Below are positions 189-14,442 of a stretch of DNA of 45,403 bases, one piece after another. Each line of letters starts with the position of its first letter. The stretch's first letter is position 1. The notes beneath the pieces are model-generated. The model did no database searches. It worked only from the letters and a program-made list of their open reading frames with translations, and was not told the origin of the DNA. The stretch comes from Desulfomonilia bacterium (lineage in GTDB: Bacteria; Desulfobacterota; Desulfomonilia; UBA1062): NCBI GenBank assembly GCA_036567785.1, contig DATCTV010000055.1, positions 1-45,403 on the forward strand, read 5' to 3'. A program made the position numbers and the translations under genes.

Positions 189-264
189 AATCAATATATA
201 AATGCCGGGTTGTCGGCTGTTTTCAGACACAATAATGAATTGAATTTAAATGTGGAGGACATCT

Positions 265-2250
265 ATGAAAACAGGAAAATTATATTATCCGTGGTTATTG
301 TTTTTGATGCTCTTTTTTATGACGGCATGCCTGAAAGTTACTGGAATAACTCCTGCAAAGGCATCTGAGAATGTAAGCAGAAACGCTGAGATAATAGTTT
401 TATTCAATATTGCCCCAGATCCTCTTACAATCAACAGGGATACATTTGTTGTCAAAGACGATTCCGGAAATGTCGTAGACGGTGAAATCGAATGCGATGG
501 CAAAAAAATAAAGTTTAAACCGGCTTCACCTCTGATCTATGCAACGAGATATGATTTGGCAATAAAGACTGTGGTAAGAAACAAGACGGGTTTATCACTT
601 GGCACAGATTTTAAATCATCATTTACAACCGAAGCCCCGGCCGGACTTAATGTCATTGCTACATCTCCCGCAGATAATGAGATGAATGTAAAACGGGATA
701 CAGCAGTAAAAATATACTTTGACAGCAAGCTGGACTCTTCAAGCATTTCTTCAGGTTCTGTTAACATCAAGAACAGGATCGGGAAAACAGTTAAAGTCAA
801 AAGTGTTTTGGTTAGAGGAAATTGTTTAACCATGGAACATGATGAGAAGTTTGATATGAATACAGTATATTCTGTCAATATTTCAAAAGGAATAAAACAT
901 ATTAACGGCTGGACAGCCTCAGAGGATTATTCTTTTGAATTCAAAACTCATGATGGCTTGTGGAGGCCTATAGATTTCCCATTTGTAAACGCTGATATCG
1001 ACTCCTCAAATATAAGGTTTGTTTCAAATCCGGACGGGTATGCATTAGCCGTGTGGTCCCAGATCGACGGATTTGATGAAAACAAATGTCCTGAATATAA
1101 TATTTATGCAAGTCTTTGGAATAAAGTATCCTGGGAAAATCCCCAGCCCATCGGAATACCGGGTGCCCTGTGTGACGGCCCTTCAATATTTGACGTTCAG
1201 GCTTCATTCAGCATGGATGGGCGCCAGGCAACAGTATTATGGGCTCAATCGTTTGATACTGAACAGGGCCTTCCTGCGTTCGATATCTATTCTAACTGTT
1301 GGAACGGAACAGCATGGCAGGGTGTTAAAACTGTAGGAACCGCCGGTCAACGCAGCATAGAGGCAAGCCGTTATCCCGGACAGCTCAGTTTGTCATATGG
1401 CCCTGATGGAAGGGCATTTGCAACATGGCTTTATTGGGAGTTTGCAGAGAAAAACATTCTTTCTCAAATAATGTACAGTGTAAATGATGGTGATACCTGG
1501 AGTGATCCTGAAGAGGTTTTCCCGACTTGCAGTGATACTGTTATGGAACAGCAGGTTGGTTTTGATAAAAACGGACATGGGATGCTGATAATGAAAAAAT
1601 TAATGGGTACTGCTTCAGGTATATATGCCAGCCATTACAACGGGGCAGTATGGGGCGATGCAAAATCATTGGGAGCTACAGGAAACAGCATAAATATGAC
1701 CTTTCTTTCGAACGGCGATGTCCTGGCTGCATGGTTTGGAGGATATCAATATGAGACATCGGTTATAGCATACCGTTGGGATAGCAAAACAGATAGATGG
1801 GAATCATCGGGAGCAATCGGAAACGCATATGTTGAACCATTCATGAAACCTGCGATCGCTGTCGGTTCAACTGGCGATGCTGTAATGGCATGGAAAGACG
1901 GTGAAAACAGAAGGAGTATTTTTGCATCACGATATAACCGGAATTCATGGGGCCTTCCGCAGCTGCTTGCATCGCCGCTAGAAGGCATTGCTTCAAATCC
2001 TGAAGCCGCCGGCTGTCCGAACGGTGATATATTCCTGATCTGGTGGCAGAGGCACATTATTCTTAACAGATACGACCTGTGTGTGAGAAAGCTGGATTCT
2101 GACCTGGGTATATGGGGAGATATGCAAATAATAAAGTCCGTAGAATCCAGCGATGCACCTGAATCCTTGCATGTGGCCGTAAGTCCGGATTCAAGTGCAG
2201 TCCTGATCTGGAAGCAGGGCGGCAGTTTATATTCAATGATATTTGATTAA
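265..2250 (+). CDS. Lipoprotein with two Big_5 domains and beta-propeller-like repeats (paralogue 1 of 3)
   Basis: A 661-aa protein predicted to be exported and lipid-anchored. The start is the ATG preceded by GGAGG at 253-257; an ATG 15 bases upstream overlaps this Shine-Dalgarno and is less likely. The N-terminus has a Lys, a hydrophobic stretch and lipobox MTAC with Cys22. Residues about 24-125 and 127-235 are two Ig-like Big_5/SbsA-type domains, each ending in the family's F-x-x-x-F-T/K-T strand. The rest holds about eight repeats of the form [DN]-x-x-G-x-A-x-x-x-W (for example GSTGDAVMAWKD, SPDSSAVLIWKQ), as expected for a 7-8 bladed propeller. It heads three similar genes in a row. A role in surface binding or glycan contact is only inference; no catalytic motif is visible. 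Confidence 0.85.
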   Translation: MKTGKLYYPWLLFLMLFFMTACLKVTGITPAKASENVSRNAEIIVLFNIAPDPLTINRDTFVVKDDSGNVVDGEIECDGKKIKFKPASPLIYATRYDLAIKTVVRNKTGLSLGTDFKSSFTTEAPAGLNVIATSPADNEMNVKRDTAVKIYFDSKLDSSSISSGSVNIKNRIGKTVKVKSVLVRGNCLTMEHDEKFDMNTVYSVNISKGIKHINGWTASEDYSFEFKTHDGLWRPIDFPFVNADIDSSNIRFVSNPDGYALAVWSQIDGFDENKCPEYNIYASLWNKVSWENPQPIGIPGALCDGPSIFDVQASFSMDGRQATVLWAQSFDTEQGLPAFDIYSNCWNGTAWQGVKTVGTAGQRSIEASRYPGQLSLSYGPDGRAFATWLYWEFAEKNILSQIMYSVNDGDTWSDPEEVFPTCSDTVMEQQVGFDKNGHGMLIMKKLMGTASGIYASHYNGAVWGDAKSLGATGNSINMTFLSNGDVLAAWFGGYQYETSVIAYRWDSKTDRWESSGAIGNAYVEPFMKPAIAVGSTGDAVMAWKDGENRRSIFASRYNRNSWGLPQLLASPLEGIASNPEAAGCPNGDIFLIWWQRHIILNRYDLCVRKLDSDLGIWGDMQIIKSVESSDAPESLHVAVSPDSSAVLIWKQGGSLYSMIFD

Positions 2251-2263
2251 TCAGGGGGAATAT

Positions 2264-4249
2264 ATGAAATGTGCAAAAACAAGGAAAATCGTAATCTATT
2301 CAGTTTTTATGACTTTCATTGTACTTGCTGTCGGGTGTCTGAGGGTAAATGCTGTAGAGCCTTCAGACAAGGCAACAGATGTTGAGACTGATGCATGCGT
2401 CAAGGTTATATTCAACATGAAACCTGATAGTGCGTCGGTTAATGCCGGAACGTTTATTCTGAAAGACAGCTCAGGAAAAGGCGTTGAAGGCAGAATATCG
2501 GTTTCAGGCAAAACTGCAGCGTTTAAACCTGTCTCAAGTCTGGCACCAGGAAGCAGATATTCAGTCTATGTAATGAAAAATATTAAAGACGCTTCAGGAA
2601 AAGAGCTGGATATGGATTACATATTCAACTTTACAACCACAGGAAATATCGTGGCATCTGTTGATCCGGCGGACAGTTCTGAGGGTATTCCATGCGGCGG
2701 CATAATAAAGATATTTTTCAGCATGGATGCCGATCCGTCAACCGTCAATGATTCAACTATCAGGCTTATGGACGGTTCCGGCAATCCGGTTGCCGGAGAA
2801 GTCATCTCCAACGGCAGGATAGCGGTTTTCAAACCCATACTGAGATTATCAGAGCTTGAAAAATATACTCTGAGGGTTACCACAGGGGTTAAAGATATCA
2901 AGGGAAGGCCTATTACAAGAGACTTTACATCATCATTTACAACCAGAGCCGATTCATGGAGTGCTCCTGTCAGGGTCAATGCTGAAAAGGAGTACGCTTT
3001 CAGCCCGCATGTCTCTATGGATGACAACAACAATGCATTCATCTTCTGGTGGCAGTATGCGGATTCAGCTTCAGCAATATTGAGAAGTGATTATCAGAAC
3101 GGAACGCTTTCAACAATTCCGGATGTAATGAGCATGACTGCATTTAATCAAAAATATGTTGATTATCCGCAGGTCGCCATGAATAAAAACGGCAAGGCGA
3201 TTGCTTTCTGGATCGAACTTGACGGTGTTTTATGCCGATTGTTCAGCAGCACGTATGAAGCGGGCAAATGGGGAAAGCCTGCAGCGGTAAGTGATGCCGT
3301 CGGGGAAATCAATATAGCAAAAGCAGTGGTAAACGATAATGGAGACGCCATATTGGCATGGCTCCAAACTTATGAGGAAGACCCTTCCACAACAAGGGTC
3401 TGCTTCAGTATTCTGAAGAATAACATCTGGAGTGCTCCTCTATCGACAGGTGAACCGGAAGGAATACCGTATGAATTTCAGTTAGCAATAAGCCGCAGCG
3501 GCAGTGCCATAATAGCATGGACAGAACAGTGCAGTATCAATTATGTACTGACATTCGGCCGTATTTTCAAGAAGGAGTACAACGGTGAAAGCTGGGGTAA
3601 CACCGAAAGAATAAACAATTACACCTATACAACAGGCAGTTTACTGACTTCAACCACCAATCCTGAAATCGTAATGGAAGAAAACGGAGATGCCATTATG
3701 GTCTGGTGCCAGCAGGAAAAGGCATCAACCGAGGTCGGCGATCCATATGTGAAAAGGATATACAAGAGTGAGCGCCACAATGGAGTGTGGGACGAAAAGC
3801 CTTCAATACTGAGCAGGGAAGGTGTGGACGCATCACGCCCAAAGATTGCCATGAACCGCCTTGGTGATGCCCAGATATTATGGCTGGAAAAAGAACATAT
3901 GTATGGCATCAGCCGACATGAAGGTTTCTGGGATACCTATCCTGAATATATCTTCACTCTGTCGGTCTGCACCGGATCTGACGGGGCCGGTTACCATATG
4001 GCTATGGATAACAGCGGTAAGGTCCGGATCCTTGTTTCAGGATATAATATCCGAGGAAACCAGAAAGCTCAGATATTCAGAACCGAATTTGCCAGGCCTC
4101 AGGCATCTGTGCTGACTGCAATAAGCAGTCCTGATTCGGATGCCTTGAATCTCAGGCTGGCAGCCGACGGCAGGGGTAATGCCATTGCGGTCTGGGAACA
4201 GAAATCGGATGATGGAAAACCATCGGTCTTTATGAGTGAATTCCGGTGA
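2264..4249 (+). CDS. Lipoprotein with two Big_5 domains and beta-propeller-like repeats (paralogue 2 of 3)
   Basis: A 661-aa paralogue of its neighbours on both sides. The ATG at 2264 is preferred over one at 2243 because AGGGGGA sits just before it and the shorter form begins with a clean lipoprotein signal (MKCAKTRK, hydrophobic stretch, lipobox AVGC with Cys25). Two Big_5 domains cover about residues 28-130 and 131-233, ending in FNFTTT and SSFTTR. About eight propeller-type repeats follow, such as NDNGDAILAWLQ, EENGDAIMVWCQ and ADGRGNAIAVWEQ. The gap to the upstream stop is 13 bases, so the two are surely co-transcribed. Its repeats are more regular than those of paralogue 1. Substrate or partner cannot be read from the sequence. 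Confidence 0.86.
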   Translation: MKCAKTRKIVIYSVFMTFIVLAVGCLRVNAVEPSDKATDVETDACVKVIFNMKPDSASVNAGTFILKDSSGKGVEGRISVSGKTAAFKPVSSLAPGSRYSVYVMKNIKDASGKELDMDYIFNFTTTGNIVASVDPADSSEGIPCGGIIKIFFSMDADPSTVNDSTIRLMDGSGNPVAGEVISNGRIAVFKPILRLSELEKYTLRVTTGVKDIKGRPITRDFTSSFTTRADSWSAPVRVNAEKEYAFSPHVSMDDNNNAFIFWWQYADSASAILRSDYQNGTLSTIPDVMSMTAFNQKYVDYPQVAMNKNGKAIAFWIELDGVLCRLFSSTYEAGKWGKPAAVSDAVGEINIAKAVVNDNGDAILAWLQTYEEDPSTTRVCFSILKNNIWSAPLSTGEPEGIPYEFQLAISRSGSAIIAWTEQCSINYVLTFGRIFKKEYNGESWGNTERINNYTYTTGSLLTSTTNPEIVMEENGDAIMVWCQQEKASTEVGDPYVKRIYKSERHNGVWDEKPSILSREGVDASRPKIAMNRLGDAQILWLEKEHMYGISRHEGFWDTYPEYIFTLSVCTGSDGAGYHMAMDNSGKVRILVSGYNIRGNQKAQIFRTEFARPQASVLTAISSPDSDALNLRLAADGRGNAIAVWEQKSDDGKPSVFMSEFR

Positions 4250-4303
4250 ATTCATAACACCTGATTTAAAACAAATTTTTTAATTTAATGAGGAGACTGC
4301 ATC

Positions 4304-6310
4304 ATGAAAAAAAATTATAGGAATATCCTGACAGTTGTTTTTTTAATATCAGTGTTTTTACTTGGCGGTTGTATAAAGGTGATAAGTACGGATCCTGCAG
4401 ACGGTTCGGAAGGTGTACCGGTTAACAAGACTGTCCGCATGGTTCTCAACAGGGAAGTGAATCCCGGTACGGTCAATGCCGGGACACTGATTGTCAAAGA
4501 CAGTTCCGGCAGTATTATCCCTGGAGATATTTTCTGTAACGGCAAAGAGGTATTTTTCACACCTCAAACCCTTTTTGCGAAGGGAACGAAGTATTCTGTC
4601 ACGTTAAAAAAACAGATTAAAGACATGATGGGTACAGGTCTTAAAGAGTATTTGTTTTCATTTACCACTGCATGTTCGTCTCCGGATCCGTCGTTGATGC
4701 CTCATGTATTATCTGTATCGCCTTCTGACGGTTCTACCGGCATAGCCTTTGATGCACCTGTCAGGGTGAGGTTCGACACTGCCGTTCTCGGATCATCGGT
4801 AAATTCAAAAAGCTTTATTGTAACAGATGGTGAGGGTACAAGAATAAATGGTAATTTTTCTTTCAGCGACGACATGAAAAGTCTTTCATTCATACCTGTC
4901 AATCCTTTTGCTTTCCTGACAGAATACACTGTACGGCTTGAAAATAAGATTTCCAGCAATAAGGGAATACGGCTTGAAAAGGGTATAAGCCTTTCTTTTA
5001 CAACGGAAGCAGAAAAGAAGTGGAACACGCCGGCAGCATTCATGACGGATAATGGTACATTTGGAGGTTATGCTGATCTGGCCATGGACAGTAACGGAAA
5101 TGCAATAGTTGCTTTTGTCGAGGTTGACAATGTTAAGAGCTGGATCAGCAGGTGCGAATTCAGGAACGGGGCATGGGGGGAAGTTCAAAAAATAAGCATG
5201 TCACGGAATAATGCCGGTGCTCCGAAAGTCGTTATGAACGACAACGATGAAGCAATAATCGTCTGGACCGAGTGGGACAAAACATATACAGGGGAAGATG
5301 AAAATCCTGTTTATACGCAGGAACTTTTCAGCAGCTTGTACAGAAACGGAGAATGGAGTACTCCTGAAATTGTTCAGGGAATGAATAATTATATTTCTAT
5401 TGCACTCGGTAATGACGGAGATGCCATTCTTGCCGGTTACCTTCTCGATGATAACTTCAATATTCTTGGATTGGGCATAAAGGAATTCAGAGACGGCTCG
5501 TGGAACAACATGCCTCTGAAAAAGATCGACACGGATGAATATAATGCCATAAATGTCCAGCTTGAGATTGATGATTCAGGCGATGCGATTGTAACATGGC
5601 TCAAGGATGACAACAATGACCGCCCGTCATTCTTCATGAAGAGGAACAGCCACATATGGACCGAACCTGAAGAAATAAAAACCGATACTTTCGATAAGAC
5701 TATTCCCATATTGAATCGTTATGGAGATAATGTAGCCGACGGCATTCTGAACTGTATATTCTCGTGGATTATTGATCCCGTAAGGTCCGGCAGTGATACG
5801 AGCATCAATATTGTCAGAAGAGATACTACAGAGGAAAACGGCTATCACCTGGCGAAAAAAGGGGATTCTGTATTTCTTGCCTGGAGAGAATATTTTACAG
5901 CTTATCAGACTTACAATAAAAACCGTTATTATACTTACAGCGCCGAATACATCAACGGTGAATGGACAGTTCCGATGCTTGCAACAAATATGTCAATTTG
6001 CAAGCTTGATATCTGGAACCTTGCCAGAGCTTTCCGGCTTGATATAGACGGCAGGGGCAATGCGGTTATGGCTTGGCCTCAGAGGGAGGACCAGTCTGGA
6101 ACCTACTGGTTCAGGGACTATGGCTGCTACAGGATATTCAGAAACGAATACAGGAGCGGGATATGGAATTACGAATCACAACAGATAAGCACGGCAGGTA
6201 GATATTCCGATTATCCCAGAGTTGCAATGGACAGGAAGGGAAATGCCATAATCATCTGGCAGGAATGGGACGGCAGCAGATGGCAGTTGTTCAAGACCGA
6301 GTACAGGTGA
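4304..6310 (+). CDS. Lipoprotein with two Big_5 domains and beta-propeller-like repeats (paralogue 3 of 3)
   Basis: A 668-aa exported lipoprotein, last of the triplet. The start ATG follows GAGGAGA with good spacing. The signal is short: MKKNYRN, a hydrophobic core and lipobox LLGGC with Cys23. Two Big_5 domains (about 25-125 and 133-235) share segments with paralogue 2, for example NAGTLIVKDSSG against NAGTFILKDSSG. About seven blade-like repeats follow (NDNDEAIIVWTE, DDSGDAIVTWLK, DRKGNAIIIWQE). The gap to paralogue 2 is 54 bases and AT-rich. A strong inverted repeat about 60 bases after the stop closes the unit. As in the other two copies, the fold can be named with fair confidence but not the function. 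Confidence 0.86.
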   Translation: MKKNYRNILTVVFLISVFLLGGCIKVISTDPADGSEGVPVNKTVRMVLNREVNPGTVNAGTLIVKDSSGSIIPGDIFCNGKEVFFTPQTLFAKGTKYSVTLKKQIKDMMGTGLKEYLFSFTTACSSPDPSLMPHVLSVSPSDGSTGIAFDAPVRVRFDTAVLGSSVNSKSFIVTDGEGTRINGNFSFSDDMKSLSFIPVNPFAFLTEYTVRLENKISSNKGIRLEKGISLSFTTEAEKKWNTPAAFMTDNGTFGGYADLAMDSNGNAIVAFVEVDNVKSWISRCEFRNGAWGEVQKISMSRNNAGAPKVVMNDNDEAIIVWTEWDKTYTGEDENPVYTQELFSSLYRNGEWSTPEIVQGMNNYISIALGNDGDAILAGYLLDDNFNILGLGIKEFRDGSWNNMPLKKIDTDEYNAINVQLEIDDSGDAIVTWLKDDNNDRPSFFMKRNSHIWTEPEEIKTDTFDKTIPILNRYGDNVADGILNCIFSWIIDPVRSGSDTSINIVRRDTTEENGYHLAKKGDSVFLAWREYFTAYQTYNKNRYYTYSAEYINGEWTVPMLATNMSICKLDIWNLARAFRLDIDGRGNAVMAWPQREDQSGTYWFRDYGCYRIFRNEYRSGIWNYESQQISTAGRYSDYPRVAMDRKGNAIIIWQEWDGSRWQLFKTEYR

Positions 6311-6517: not shown

Positions 6518-8173
6518 CTATTCTCTTAAATCCTGCGTTGAGATGGTTTGCGCCGCAATATCTGCTTCGCTGAACGGCAGGTCGATCCATTCCTTGTCGC
6601 TGTACATTTGTGTCTGATCCTTATACCAGGGTGAATTGACGTTTTGTGACAGTGAATAGGTCGTGATGGTGCTCATGCGCGGGTATTCCCTGCCTTCGAA
6701 ACTCACGACCTGGATATATGTATTTCCGTGATACGGATTGACGAAGGCTTTCTTTGCAGGGTCCCAATTACTCTCGATAACACTGAACAAACCCAGTGAA
6801 TCGGATCCGCCGTGCACCGGGATGTTTTCACCTCCGCGTTCCACGTATTGATGATCCCGCAGCGTCGCATCAAGGGGAAGGTTAAGATCATGGAATTCCT
6901 GCAGCGTATCATTAACGGCTGTCCATACCTTCGGATTCAGTATGTTCAATCCCCTGGGAGTGCCGATAGGGTCAGTGGTATTGAAGGGATAAAGAAAACA
7001 TGATGTCAGCGGTATGGTGGGGGAATATGTTGTCCCGGCCGGCAATGATGTTCCAAGCAGCTGCCTGGCAATGCGCCGGAACAGAAGCGCCCCGGGGGAG
7101 TCAAGATTATCCGTGCGGTCCCAGGCTGCAAGTACGTCAATGGCCGGTTTTATGCTGTTATCAACGATGGCCATTATTTTTAGAAGCCGGAGAAGATCGT
7201 CCACCCAAAGCTCGGCCAGCTTGTTGCGTGCATTAAAAATAATCTCCCGCATGTTGTCATGGGTGAATTTGTTGCCCGGAAGCCCGTCATTGCCCGAGAG
7301 CCTTTCTGCGATTATTGTATGCCCCATTCGAGTACGCAGGCTTAATTGCGAATTTTCCGTACCTATGATGCGGGCATAGCCTGTAACGGGTTCTGACGGG
7401 TTTACCAGCCAGTAGCTGTCATTGCTGTTAAGCACAAAATCATGCCTGAAGATCGACGGTAATTGCGATATGCCCATAATGCCCGGAACTATGGCATCCG
7501 AGGCGGCCTCCGGCATGCACTCTGAGCGGGTTCCGTCAAGAATGGGAAGCCCCAGAAGTCTGAAAGTAAGCTGTCCCAGAGATGATCCGCAAGAGGTTGC
7601 CTTCTTGTCAGGGATGTTTGCAACTACGGTAATGTCACCGTAAAAGGCCTCTCCATAAGCATCGGCGGCAATCGTATTAGCCCATGGGATAGCCTGGAAC
7701 CTTTCCAGTACCCGCTTTACATCGTGCACATTCCTTGTCTTGCCCATTTCCACAAAATGATTGAGTGCCCGCAGGTTTTCAGCATTCGGGTCCAGAAGGG
7801 CAAAGCCGCTGGAAGACGTCCATGAAAGAATTTCCAGGTCGGTCAGGGCAGTGCACATGGGGCCGAATCGTGTGGTATAGAGGGTGCGTTTTATCCTGCC
7901 GGTCGTGCCGTCATCATTGAGCGCTTCGATCTCCAATGGCCAGGCCTTCATCTGTTCGACCTTGCCGTCAACCTTGTAACTGTAGGTGTTTACAACATCA
8001 AGTTGAACCGGGACGAAACGGAATGCCGTGGATACTGTGTGCGACCAGGCCACACTGCTGTTCGCGCCGATGGCAATTATTGGTATTCCCAGAAAGCTTA
8101 TGCCGTTAACGTCATATTCCCCCGGGATGGTCATGTGAACCTGATAGAAACTCCCGGAGTCGAGCCACCCCAT
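6518..8173 (-). CDS. Penicillin acylase family protein, main part downstream of an in-frame TGA
   Basis: Most of the beta chain of an Ntn-hydrolase acylase. Read through the TGA, it continues the upstream frame without any shift: the codons after TGA give N-P-H-M-G-W, the conserved LLxNPH motif of the family. Other family landmarks follow in order: IPGEYDVNG, IGANSSVAWSHTVST, RTLYTTRFGPM, IPWANTIAADAYG, NSNDSYWLVNPSEPVTG, SLRTRMG and HGGSDSLG. These match the aculeacin acylase/PvdQ (N-acyl-homoserine lactone acylase-like) branch rather than penicillin G acylase itself. The open frame from the first ATG gives 551 aa, but that ATG is within the motif and has no clear ribosome site, so independent translation is doubtful. 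No further stop or shift is present. Read with the upstream part, it gives an 831-residue protein, the usual size. Confidence 0.8.
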   Translation of the reverse strand: MGWLDSGSFYQVHMTIPGEYDVNGISFLGIPIIAIGANSSVAWSHTVSTAFRFVPVQLDVVNTYSYKVDGKVEQMKAWPLEIEALNDDGTTGRIKRTLYTTRFGPMCTALTDLEILSWTSSSGFALLDPNAENLRALNHFVEMGKTRNVHDVKRVLERFQAIPWANTIAADAYGEAFYGDITVVANIPDKKATSCGSSLGQLTFRLLGLPILDGTRSECMPEAASDAIVPGIMGISQLPSIFRHDFVLNSNDSYWLVNPSEPVTGYARIIGTENSQLSLRTRMGHTIIAERLSGNDGLPGNKFTHDNMREIIFNARNKLAELWVDDLLRLLKIMAIVDNSIKPAIDVLAAWDRTDNLDSPGALLFRRIARQLLGTSLPAGTTYSPTIPLTSCFLYPFNTTDPIGTPRGLNILNPKVWTAVNDTLQEFHDLNLPLDATLRDHQYVERGGENIPVHGGSDSLGLFSVIESNWDPAKKAFVNPYHGNTYIQVVSFEGREYPRMSTITTYSLSQNVNSPWYKDQTQMYSDKEWIDLPFSEADIAAQTISTQDLRE

Positions 8174-8182
8174 ATGCGGATT

Positions 8183-8185
8183 TCA
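8183..8185 (-). other. In-frame UGA within the acylase: nonsense mutation or candidate selenocysteine codon
   Basis: On the minus strand the codons run CTG CTG CTG TGA AAT CCG CAT, giving L-L-L-stop-N-P-H. Homologues as I recall them carry a small residue such as Ala or Gly at the stop position; GGA to TGA is one base change. The RNA just after the UGA can form a small hairpin (ACUC-CGG-GAGU, loop about 28-30 nt after the UGA), within the usual distance range of a bacterial SECIS but short and without the typical bulged U. selA lies 4 kb away, so the cell probably makes selenoproteins. The simplest reading remains a nonsense mutation. Confidence 0.5.
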
Positions 8186-9013
8186 CAGCAGCAGTCCGCG
8201 GCCGTTCTTTGTGGCTTCTTTCCCGACTGCAATGGCATTGCTTCCCATGCTGAGCTTCAGGTGTGACTTCAATTGGGATATGGACTGTTCGTCTGAATTC
8301 AGTATATCGGCCAGTTGTACATTTGCCGCGGATTTTTTGGGACTGGCGCCGCCGATTCCGCCTACTGAAGCGGCCGATCCCGCCATGATGTGAATCATGT
8401 AGCACACCCGGTAAACATCGAGTTCGGTGATTTCCCTGACCCATTCAGAGTTCTGGCAGGCCGGATCGGTAAGGGTCTCTGCCGGGTGGTCTCTAAGATA
8501 GCGGTTATATCCGGCCGCATACCCCCTGATCAAGTCCTTTACTTCAGGTCCCATCCCAACCGGGTAGGGAGATGTCATTATCTTTTCCACGAGACCCCGT
8601 GCCTTAATCAACTTGAAGAAGAAATCACTGTCTGAGTTCTTGAACAGCATTTCATTTCCGGGAAAATGGAAGGTGTTATCCGGACCGAAGTACTTCGAGC
8701 GTTCGCCGTTGGCAGTCACATATGCATCGGCCAGCCTGCAGATATTATCCTCGGCAGCGGCATATGCATAACCGTACCCCAGACCCGCCCAGTCGGCGGC
8801 CTTGATATGAGGTATCCCATGCGGCGTACGGCGGATGGTTGCATGAAATCCGCTTTCTTCAGGAAGCGTAGGTGTGTTGTTTGCTGTGCCGGCATCGGAG
8901 TTATCGCCGCTATTGCTGCAACTGGCGATGAAGATGACAATAAGCGCCAACAGCAGAAGCCGAATGATTGATCGAAAATACATCTTGCGGGTTATCCCTG
9001 AATTTCCTTTCAT
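8183..9013 (-). CDS. Penicillin acylase family lipoprotein, N-terminal part ending at an in-frame TGA
   Basis: The first 276 codons of an aculeacin acylase/PvdQ-like Ntn hydrolase. The ATG follows a strong GAGGAGGGGG. A hydrophobic stretch ends in lipobox IASC, so the protein is predicted to be a lipoprotein facing the periplasm. The segment includes the alpha chain (HATIRRTPHGIPHIKA, YGYAYAAAEDNICRL, GERSKYFG) and the start of the beta chain at GSNAIAVG. Ser258 of this motif is the family's autoproteolytic and catalytic nucleophile. The frame then stops at TGA in codon 277, 19 codons after the nucleophile and inside a conserved motif that resumes directly after the stop. The product would be inactive unless the UGA is read through, recoded or a sequencing error. 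The family hydrolyses amide bonds of acylated compounds such as acyl-homoserine lactones or lipopeptides; the substrate here is unknown. Confidence 0.8.
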   Translation of the reverse strand: MKGNSGITRKMYFRSIIRLLLLALIVIFIASCSNSGDNSDAGTANNTPTLPEESGFHATIRRTPHGIPHIKAADWAGLGYGYAYAAAEDNICRLADAYVTANGERSKYFGPDNTFHFPGNEMLFKNSDSDFFFKLIKARGLVEKIMTSPYPVGMGPEVKDLIRGYAAGYNRYLRDHPAETLTDPACQNSEWVREITELDVYRVCYMIHIMAGSAASVGGIGGASPKKSAANVQLADILNSDEQSISQLKSHLKLSMGSNAIAVGKEATKNGRGLLL

Positions 9014-13095: not shown

Positions 13096-14442
13096 ATGGA
13101 AAGAAAAGATGCGTACAGGAGCATCCCGAAGATGGATATGATTCTTGGCATGGACGAGCTCTTAAGCCTGCCCCTTCGTCAGGATATAATAAAAAAGGCT
13201 GTTGAGAATGAGCTGGTCACAATTCGTGATTCGATTAAAAAAGGTGATGCACGGAAAATTCCTACAGCACAGGAGATAGCTGCCAGGGTTTCAGCGGTTC
13301 TATCAGTTCTCATCGAAGCAGGATTGAGGCCAATGATAAATGCGACAGGCGTCATGGTGTATACGAATCTGGGAAGGGCGCCCCTTTCCTCCTACGCCCT
13401 TATGGCCATGATAGATGCGGGCGGGTATTCAGATCTGGAATATAATATAAAGGAAGGCATAAGGGGCTCCAGGCAGGATCATATAAAGGAGATCGCGAAA
13501 GCGGCCTTCGGGGTCGAGGATGCGATCGCCGTGAACAATAATGCGGCTGCGGTAATGCTGGTTCTGACAAGCCTGGCTGCCGGCAGGGAAGTGATCGTCT
13601 CCAGGGGAGAGCTTGTCGAGATAGGCGGATCGTTCAGGATGCCCGATGTCATGACATTAAGCGGTGCCGTACTCAAAGAGGTGGGCACTACAAACAAGAC
13701 AAGACTGTCCGACTACGAGGCCGCAATAAACGATAACACAGGACTCATCATGAAGGTGCACAGGAGCAACTTCGCTCTCATAGGTTTCACCGATGAGACA
13801 GAAATAAAGGAACTGTCAACTCTCGCTAAATCCAGAGGCCTGCCTTTATATGTGGATATGGGTTCGGGCATACCGTTCGACCTCTCTGCGTTCGGTATTC
13901 ACGGCGAATGGACTGTACCCTCATGCCTTACGGACGGAGCGGACATAGTATCCTTCAGTGGAGACAAGGTCCTGAGCGGTCCGCAGGCAGGAATCATTGT
14001 AGGCCGGAAGTCCCTCATATCGAAAATGTCGAAACATCCGCTGCACAGGGCTGTAAGGATAGACAAGTTCAGTCTGGCTGCGCTTGTCGAGACGCTCAAA
14101 CTGGCAGCGATGGAGATGTATGACGAGCTGCCGGTACTGAGGATGATTACCGAAGACCGCGCTGAGGTTAAAAAAAGGGCCCTGTCGCTTAAAAGAAAAC
14201 TTAAGGCGAAAAGCGCAATAATCGAGACAAAGGCTGTGATCGGGGGCGGGGCTGCTCCGACATCTACTATCCCGTCATTTGCCGTGGTGATTTCATCACC
14301 TGATTCAGTTGCCGCCCATGCCAGGCTACGTGATGAAGGAATCGTTTGCAGGATCGAAGATGACAGATTGATATTCGATATGAAAACCGTATCGGACGAA
14401 GAGCTGAAAGATGCCGCCGAAAGGATCAACAATGCCCTTTAA
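13096..14442 (+). CDS. selA: L-seryl-tRNA(Sec) selenium transferase (selenocysteine synthase)
   Basis: A 448-aa PLP enzyme that converts seryl-tRNA(Sec) to selenocysteyl-tRNA(Sec) with selenophosphate in the cytoplasm. Characteristic stretches are present in order: the N-terminal helical tRNA-binding part with LLSLP, INATGVMVYTNLGRAPLS (residues about 80-98), VNNNAAAVMLVL, VIVSRGELVEIGGSFRMPDV, EVGTTNKTRLSDYE and FSGDKVLSGPQAG, in which Lys291 is the PLP-binding lysine. Length is typical for the family (about 450-470). It overlaps the patatin gene by 11 bases and follows an unknown gene by one base. selB, selC and selD are not in the window. Its presence implies that UGA is decoded as selenocysteine somewhere in this genome. 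Confidence 0.93.
   Translation: MERKDAYRSIPKMDMILGMDELLSLPLRQDIIKKAVENELVTIRDSIKKGDARKIPTAQEIAARVSAVLSVLIEAGLRPMINATGVMVYTNLGRAPLSSYALMAMIDAGGYSDLEYNIKEGIRGSRQDHIKEIAKAAFGVEDAIAVNNNAAAVMLVLTSLAAGREVIVSRGELVEIGGSFRMPDVMTLSGAVLKEVGTTNKTRLSDYEAAINDNTGLIMKVHRSNFALIGFTDETEIKELSTLAKSRGLPLYVDMGSGIPFDLSAFGIHGEWTVPSCLTDGADIVSFSGDKVLSGPQAGIIVGRKSLISKMSKHPLHRAVRIDKFSLAALVETLKLAAMEMYDELPVLRMITEDRAEVKKRALSLKRKLKAKSAIIETKAVIGGGAAPTSTIPSFAVVISSPDSVAAHARLRDEGIVCRIEDDRLIFDMKTVSDEELKDAAERINNAL

Follow-up and report, generated by a model that had tools for sequence, protein, structure and literature searches.

The window analyzed here is the whole of contig DATCTV010000055.1 (45,403 nt) from a Desulfomonilia bacterium (GenBank assembly GCA_036567785.1), whose genome amounts to 3.96 Mb in 64 contigs, with 97% completeness and 1.6% contamination. 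On the minus strand of this window lies a frame for a predicted secreted acylase of the N-terminal nucleophile (Ntn) hydrolase type, which starts with an ATG at position 9013, is closed by a stop ending at position 6518 and is otherwise open apart from a single in-frame TGA at codon 277 (Table 1). A first-pass annotation had offered two explanations for this TGA, namely a new selenoprotein or a fresh nonsense mutation, and both are weighed below.

Table 1. Features of the window that bear on the interrupted acylase frame
Feature	Position	Strand	Remarks
PvdQ/MacQ-like N-acyl amidase (penicillin amidase family) frame, one internal TGA	6518..9013	-	831 codons
Ser258 codon, predicted nucleophile at the beta-chain N-terminus	8240..8242	-	invariant in 84 homologues
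In-frame TGA, codon 277	8183..8185	-	column Gly/Ala/Val in 84 homologues
N278-P279-H280 codons, NPH motif directly after the TGA	8174..8182	-	invariant in 84 homologues
57 bases after the TGA, scanned for a selenocysteine insertion sequence (SECIS); weak hairpin, loop GGCUCG, not above background	8126..8182	-	
selA, L-seryl-tRNA(Sec) selenium transferase	13096..14442	+	TIGR00474, 500.6 bits

The frame was described at first reading as intact on both sides of the TGA, with Ser258 upstream and all later motifs downstream, and this description holds: the Pfam family PF01804 (Penicil_amidase) gives one unbroken match across the TGA, from residue 58 to residue 820 (380.6 bits against a cut-off of 21.3). 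The motif upstream of the TGA is SMGSNAIAVGKEATKNGRGLLL and the one downstream is NPHMGW. At G257, S258, N278, P279, H280, N529, N531, R560 and R562, the acylase carries the residue that is commonest among 84 homologues. The frame is classed as PvdQ/MacQ-like and not as PvdQ itself, because its score against the PvdQ equivalog NF051460 (NCBIfam) is 538.3 bits, under the curated cut-off of 950. The best match in the PDB (residues 54-821, E 3.5e-141) is MacQ from Acidovorax sp. MR-S7 (PDB 5c9i, 4yf9), an acylase of N-acyl homoserine lactones (AHL) and beta-lactams, with which the GSN nucleophile and the GNPH motif are shared; unlike the acylase frame, MacQ has no internal stop and has Gly at the position of the TGA. 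PvdQ, an AHL acylase from Pseudomonas aeruginosa (PDB 2wyb and others), can be aligned along its beta chain beginning at the nucleophile serine, with SNAIAVG in common, and its LLANPH motif places an Ala in the TGA column. PF01804 scores above its cut-off at eight places in the genome, and an internal stop is found only in the present acylase.

The homologues, 84 sequences taken from genomes and one viral contig, are 28-51% identical to the acylase. At column 277, 65 of them have Gly, 18 have Ala and one has Val, in keeping with the small residue that the first-pass annotation gave for this position; neither Cys nor a stop, the signs of recoding that were to be sought there, occurs in any of them. 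Gly is present in each of the four nearest homologues (49-51% identity), which form one clade with the acylase (support 1.0). Cys homologues exist for nearly all known selenoproteins (PMC13188914); here, the proportion of homologues with selenocysteine (Sec) or Cys in the column of the UGA is 0/84. Since the column is occupied by Gly or Ala, it probably holds a small structural residue rather than a redox or catalytic one. These homologues thus support the nonsense mutation and, together with the lack of a distinctive hairpin, speak against the new selenoprotein. The first-pass annotation had named such a pattern in sister strains as refuting the recoding, and in the homologues compared here the pattern is the expected one, with a single Val beside Gly and Ala.

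The idea of recoding nevertheless starts from a correct premise, namely that UGA is read as Sec in this organism. A tRNA-Sec with anticodon UCA (TCA in DNA) and SelB (359 bits; cut-off 242) are present in the genome, selA does lie some 4.1 kb from the start of the acylase frame, and an in-frame TGA in the contexts RL-U-HS or RI-U-HS occurs in two genes for the alpha subunit of formate dehydrogenase (fdhA). Because tRNA-Sec, SelB, SelA and both fdhA genes can be found together, we conclude that the organism has at least some UGA codons that specify Sec. The fdhA codons (L145 1891-1893 and L147 1924-1926) are probably the genome's own Sec sites; a further partial formate dehydrogenase-like match, which lies on a different contig (L146), is free of stops. 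TGA also serves as an ordinary stop, since 7 of the 19 long window frames checked end with it. A genetic code with TGA as a general sense codon was considered and rejected, as none of the other frames has an internal TGA. The presence of the Sec machinery makes recoding a fair question to put, yet it lends no support to recoding at the acylase TGA.

If the UGA were recoded, the product would be an Ntn-hydrolase acylase carrying a Sec residue 19 positions past its nucleophile, adjoining the active-site NPH motif, and Gly would have been replaced without a Cys intermediate. The acylase frame, open on either side of the UGA, would accord with this, as would a hairpin after the UGA that passes, although narrowly, the loose bacterial SECIS (bSECIS) model, which calls for an apical loop of 3-9 nt, an upper stem of 4-16 bp, a G in the first two loop positions, a spacing of 16-37 nt and a minimum free energy of at most -7.5 (PMC13188914). 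This hairpin has a 6-bp upper stem, the loop GGCUCG, a spacing of 16 and an energy of -8.1 kcal/mol, so that its earlier description as short (about 5 bp) and lacking the bulged U was roughly right; it stands at background level. Among 700 random codon positions of the window, 43% pass the same model and 38% do as well as the acylase site or better, whereas the fdhA sites rank in the best 4-8%. By plain folding, the sequence after the TGA is equalled or surpassed by 39% of background codons and is no better than shuffled sequence; folding z-scores are uninformative here, both fdhA SECIS regions being likewise no more stable than their own shuffles. With permissive thresholds, too, the Rfam scan of the acylase site found no SECIS, while the identical scan recognized the genome's fdhA site as SECIS_3 (E 4.8e-9, below the Rfam gathering score but clear in context). 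The SECIS search that had been proposed therefore found no hairpin distinct from ordinary coding sequence, and the SECIS evidence gives recoding of the acylase UGA no support. What the acylase has in common with the selenoprotein FdhA is an in-frame UGA in a genome with Sec machinery; what it lacks is a distinctive SECIS and any Sec or Cys homologue. No described case of such an enzyme turned up in a limited literature search. We know of nothing that would call for Sec in this enzyme, and a recoded UGA would, to our knowledge, give the first Sec in the hydrolase fold. Taken with the small, apparently structural residue at column 277, these observations make recoding very improbable. A Sec-decoding genome, an open frame around a UGA and a hairpin that satisfies a permissive SECIS model are together insufficient for a selenoprotein; such cases are separated by the residue that the homologues carry at the UGA column. 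The TGA is present in the assembled sequence; the recoding proposed for it is not supported.

The interruption appears to be young, or else an error. Near-invariant columns of the 84-homologue alignment are kept at 15 of 15 positions before the TGA and at 48 of 51 after it, and 9 of the 84 intact homologues depart from such columns more often than the acylase does. Against the four nearest relatives, the identity is 0.48-0.51 before the TGA and 0.52-0.54 after it, and third-position GC is 0.59 and 0.58, respectively. Because these measures are similar on the two sides of the TGA, selection on the frame, as far as its sequence can tell, either ended only very recently or continues. The TGA is the only lesion in the 831 codons, and a single stop in a maintained frame points to a mutation of very recent date, to strain variation within the assembled population or to an error in the consensus. 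It can be held with high confidence that the UGA reflects a nonsense change of recent date or an error in the sequence rather than a selenoprotein. The likely precursor codon is GGA, which is one base from TGA and makes up 217 of the 755 Gly codons in the 19 long window frames; it has to be inferred, because the near relatives encode the Gly of column 277 as GGC.

Several points weigh on the other side. The assembled consensus alone does not separate mutation from error, the Sec machinery of the genome is complete, and the hairpin, weak as it is, formally meets the bSECIS constraints (PMC13188914). In addition, when about 1.6 Mb of this genome was screened for other interrupted genes, each of the nine long frame pairs tested with Pfam appeared to consist of adjacent genes (9/9), so that such lesions may not be common in this genome; the screen, which used codon bias and tested only these nine long candidates, is insensitive, since it missed the acylase itself.

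Regarding the course of events under a nonsense change or error, the frame would encode a secreted PvdQ/MacQ-type Ntn-hydrolase acylase in which one nonsense base was acquired, placing TGA at a codon that specifies Gly in all near relatives. The simplest path would be a single base change from GGA to TGA, which would be either a recent real mutation in the lineage or strain or an error of the assembled consensus. In this family the precursor cleaves itself in such a way that the beta chain begins with the nucleophile (PMC5566955). If Ser258 is counted as residue 1, translation as written would end after 19 residues of the beta chain, and the N-terminal product would hold the nucleophile without the remainder of the catalytic domain. 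A restart at the ATG three codons past the TGA would give a product with neither signal peptide nor Ser258. Because the TGA parts Ser258 from most of the beta chain and a restart would supply neither of these elements, we infer that the gene as written would provide no active acylase apart from traces made by UGA read-through.

The ATG just mentioned opens a frame of 551 codons, and it could be supposed that the gene is genuinely split, the alpha chain with the start of the beta chain and the rest of the beta chain being translated separately and assembling into an enzyme. Such an arrangement is even less probable than recoding, as the nucleophile must head the beta chain (PMC5566955) whereas the TGA lies 19 residues into it, and the second product would be devoid of signal peptide and serine. 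Moreover, an internal stop is found in none of the 84 homologues. Low-level read-through by a near-cognate tRNA, yielding a little full-length acylase, is the least probable explanation of all: the otherwise intact frame is compatible with it, and the UGA is followed by A, a leaky context according to work in E. coli, yet it is not needed to account for a young lesion.

Other features of the acylase can be noted. At residues 611 and 625, at least 95% of the 84 homologues, the four nearest included, have Cys, and the acylase has Leu and Ile; these are two of its three departures from near-invariant columns, and a disulfide between 611 and 625 has probably been lost. A single-sequence scan of genome contigs found no close relative of the acylase, and an alignment scan found 80; no orthologue was found in the other 23 genomes of the same family (24 searched, including its own), and no same-genus relative turned up among the genomes available for comparison. 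Viral contigs were searched with the DNA flanking the TGA, leaving the altered base open, and plasmids with the acylase gene; neither search gave a match. Because the distribution of the acylase is patchy and its nearest relatives are gammaproteobacterial metagenome-assembled genomes, horizontal transfer is suggested. Within its own genome, seven further intact penicillin-amidase paralogues can be found (L035-L041), a rich set for a genome of 4 Mb. Elsewhere in the window, positions 250-6310 of the plus strand hold three frames in tandem, of 666-668 aa and apparently paralogous; each has a lipoprotein-like start and two Big_5 Ig-like domains in its N-terminal part.
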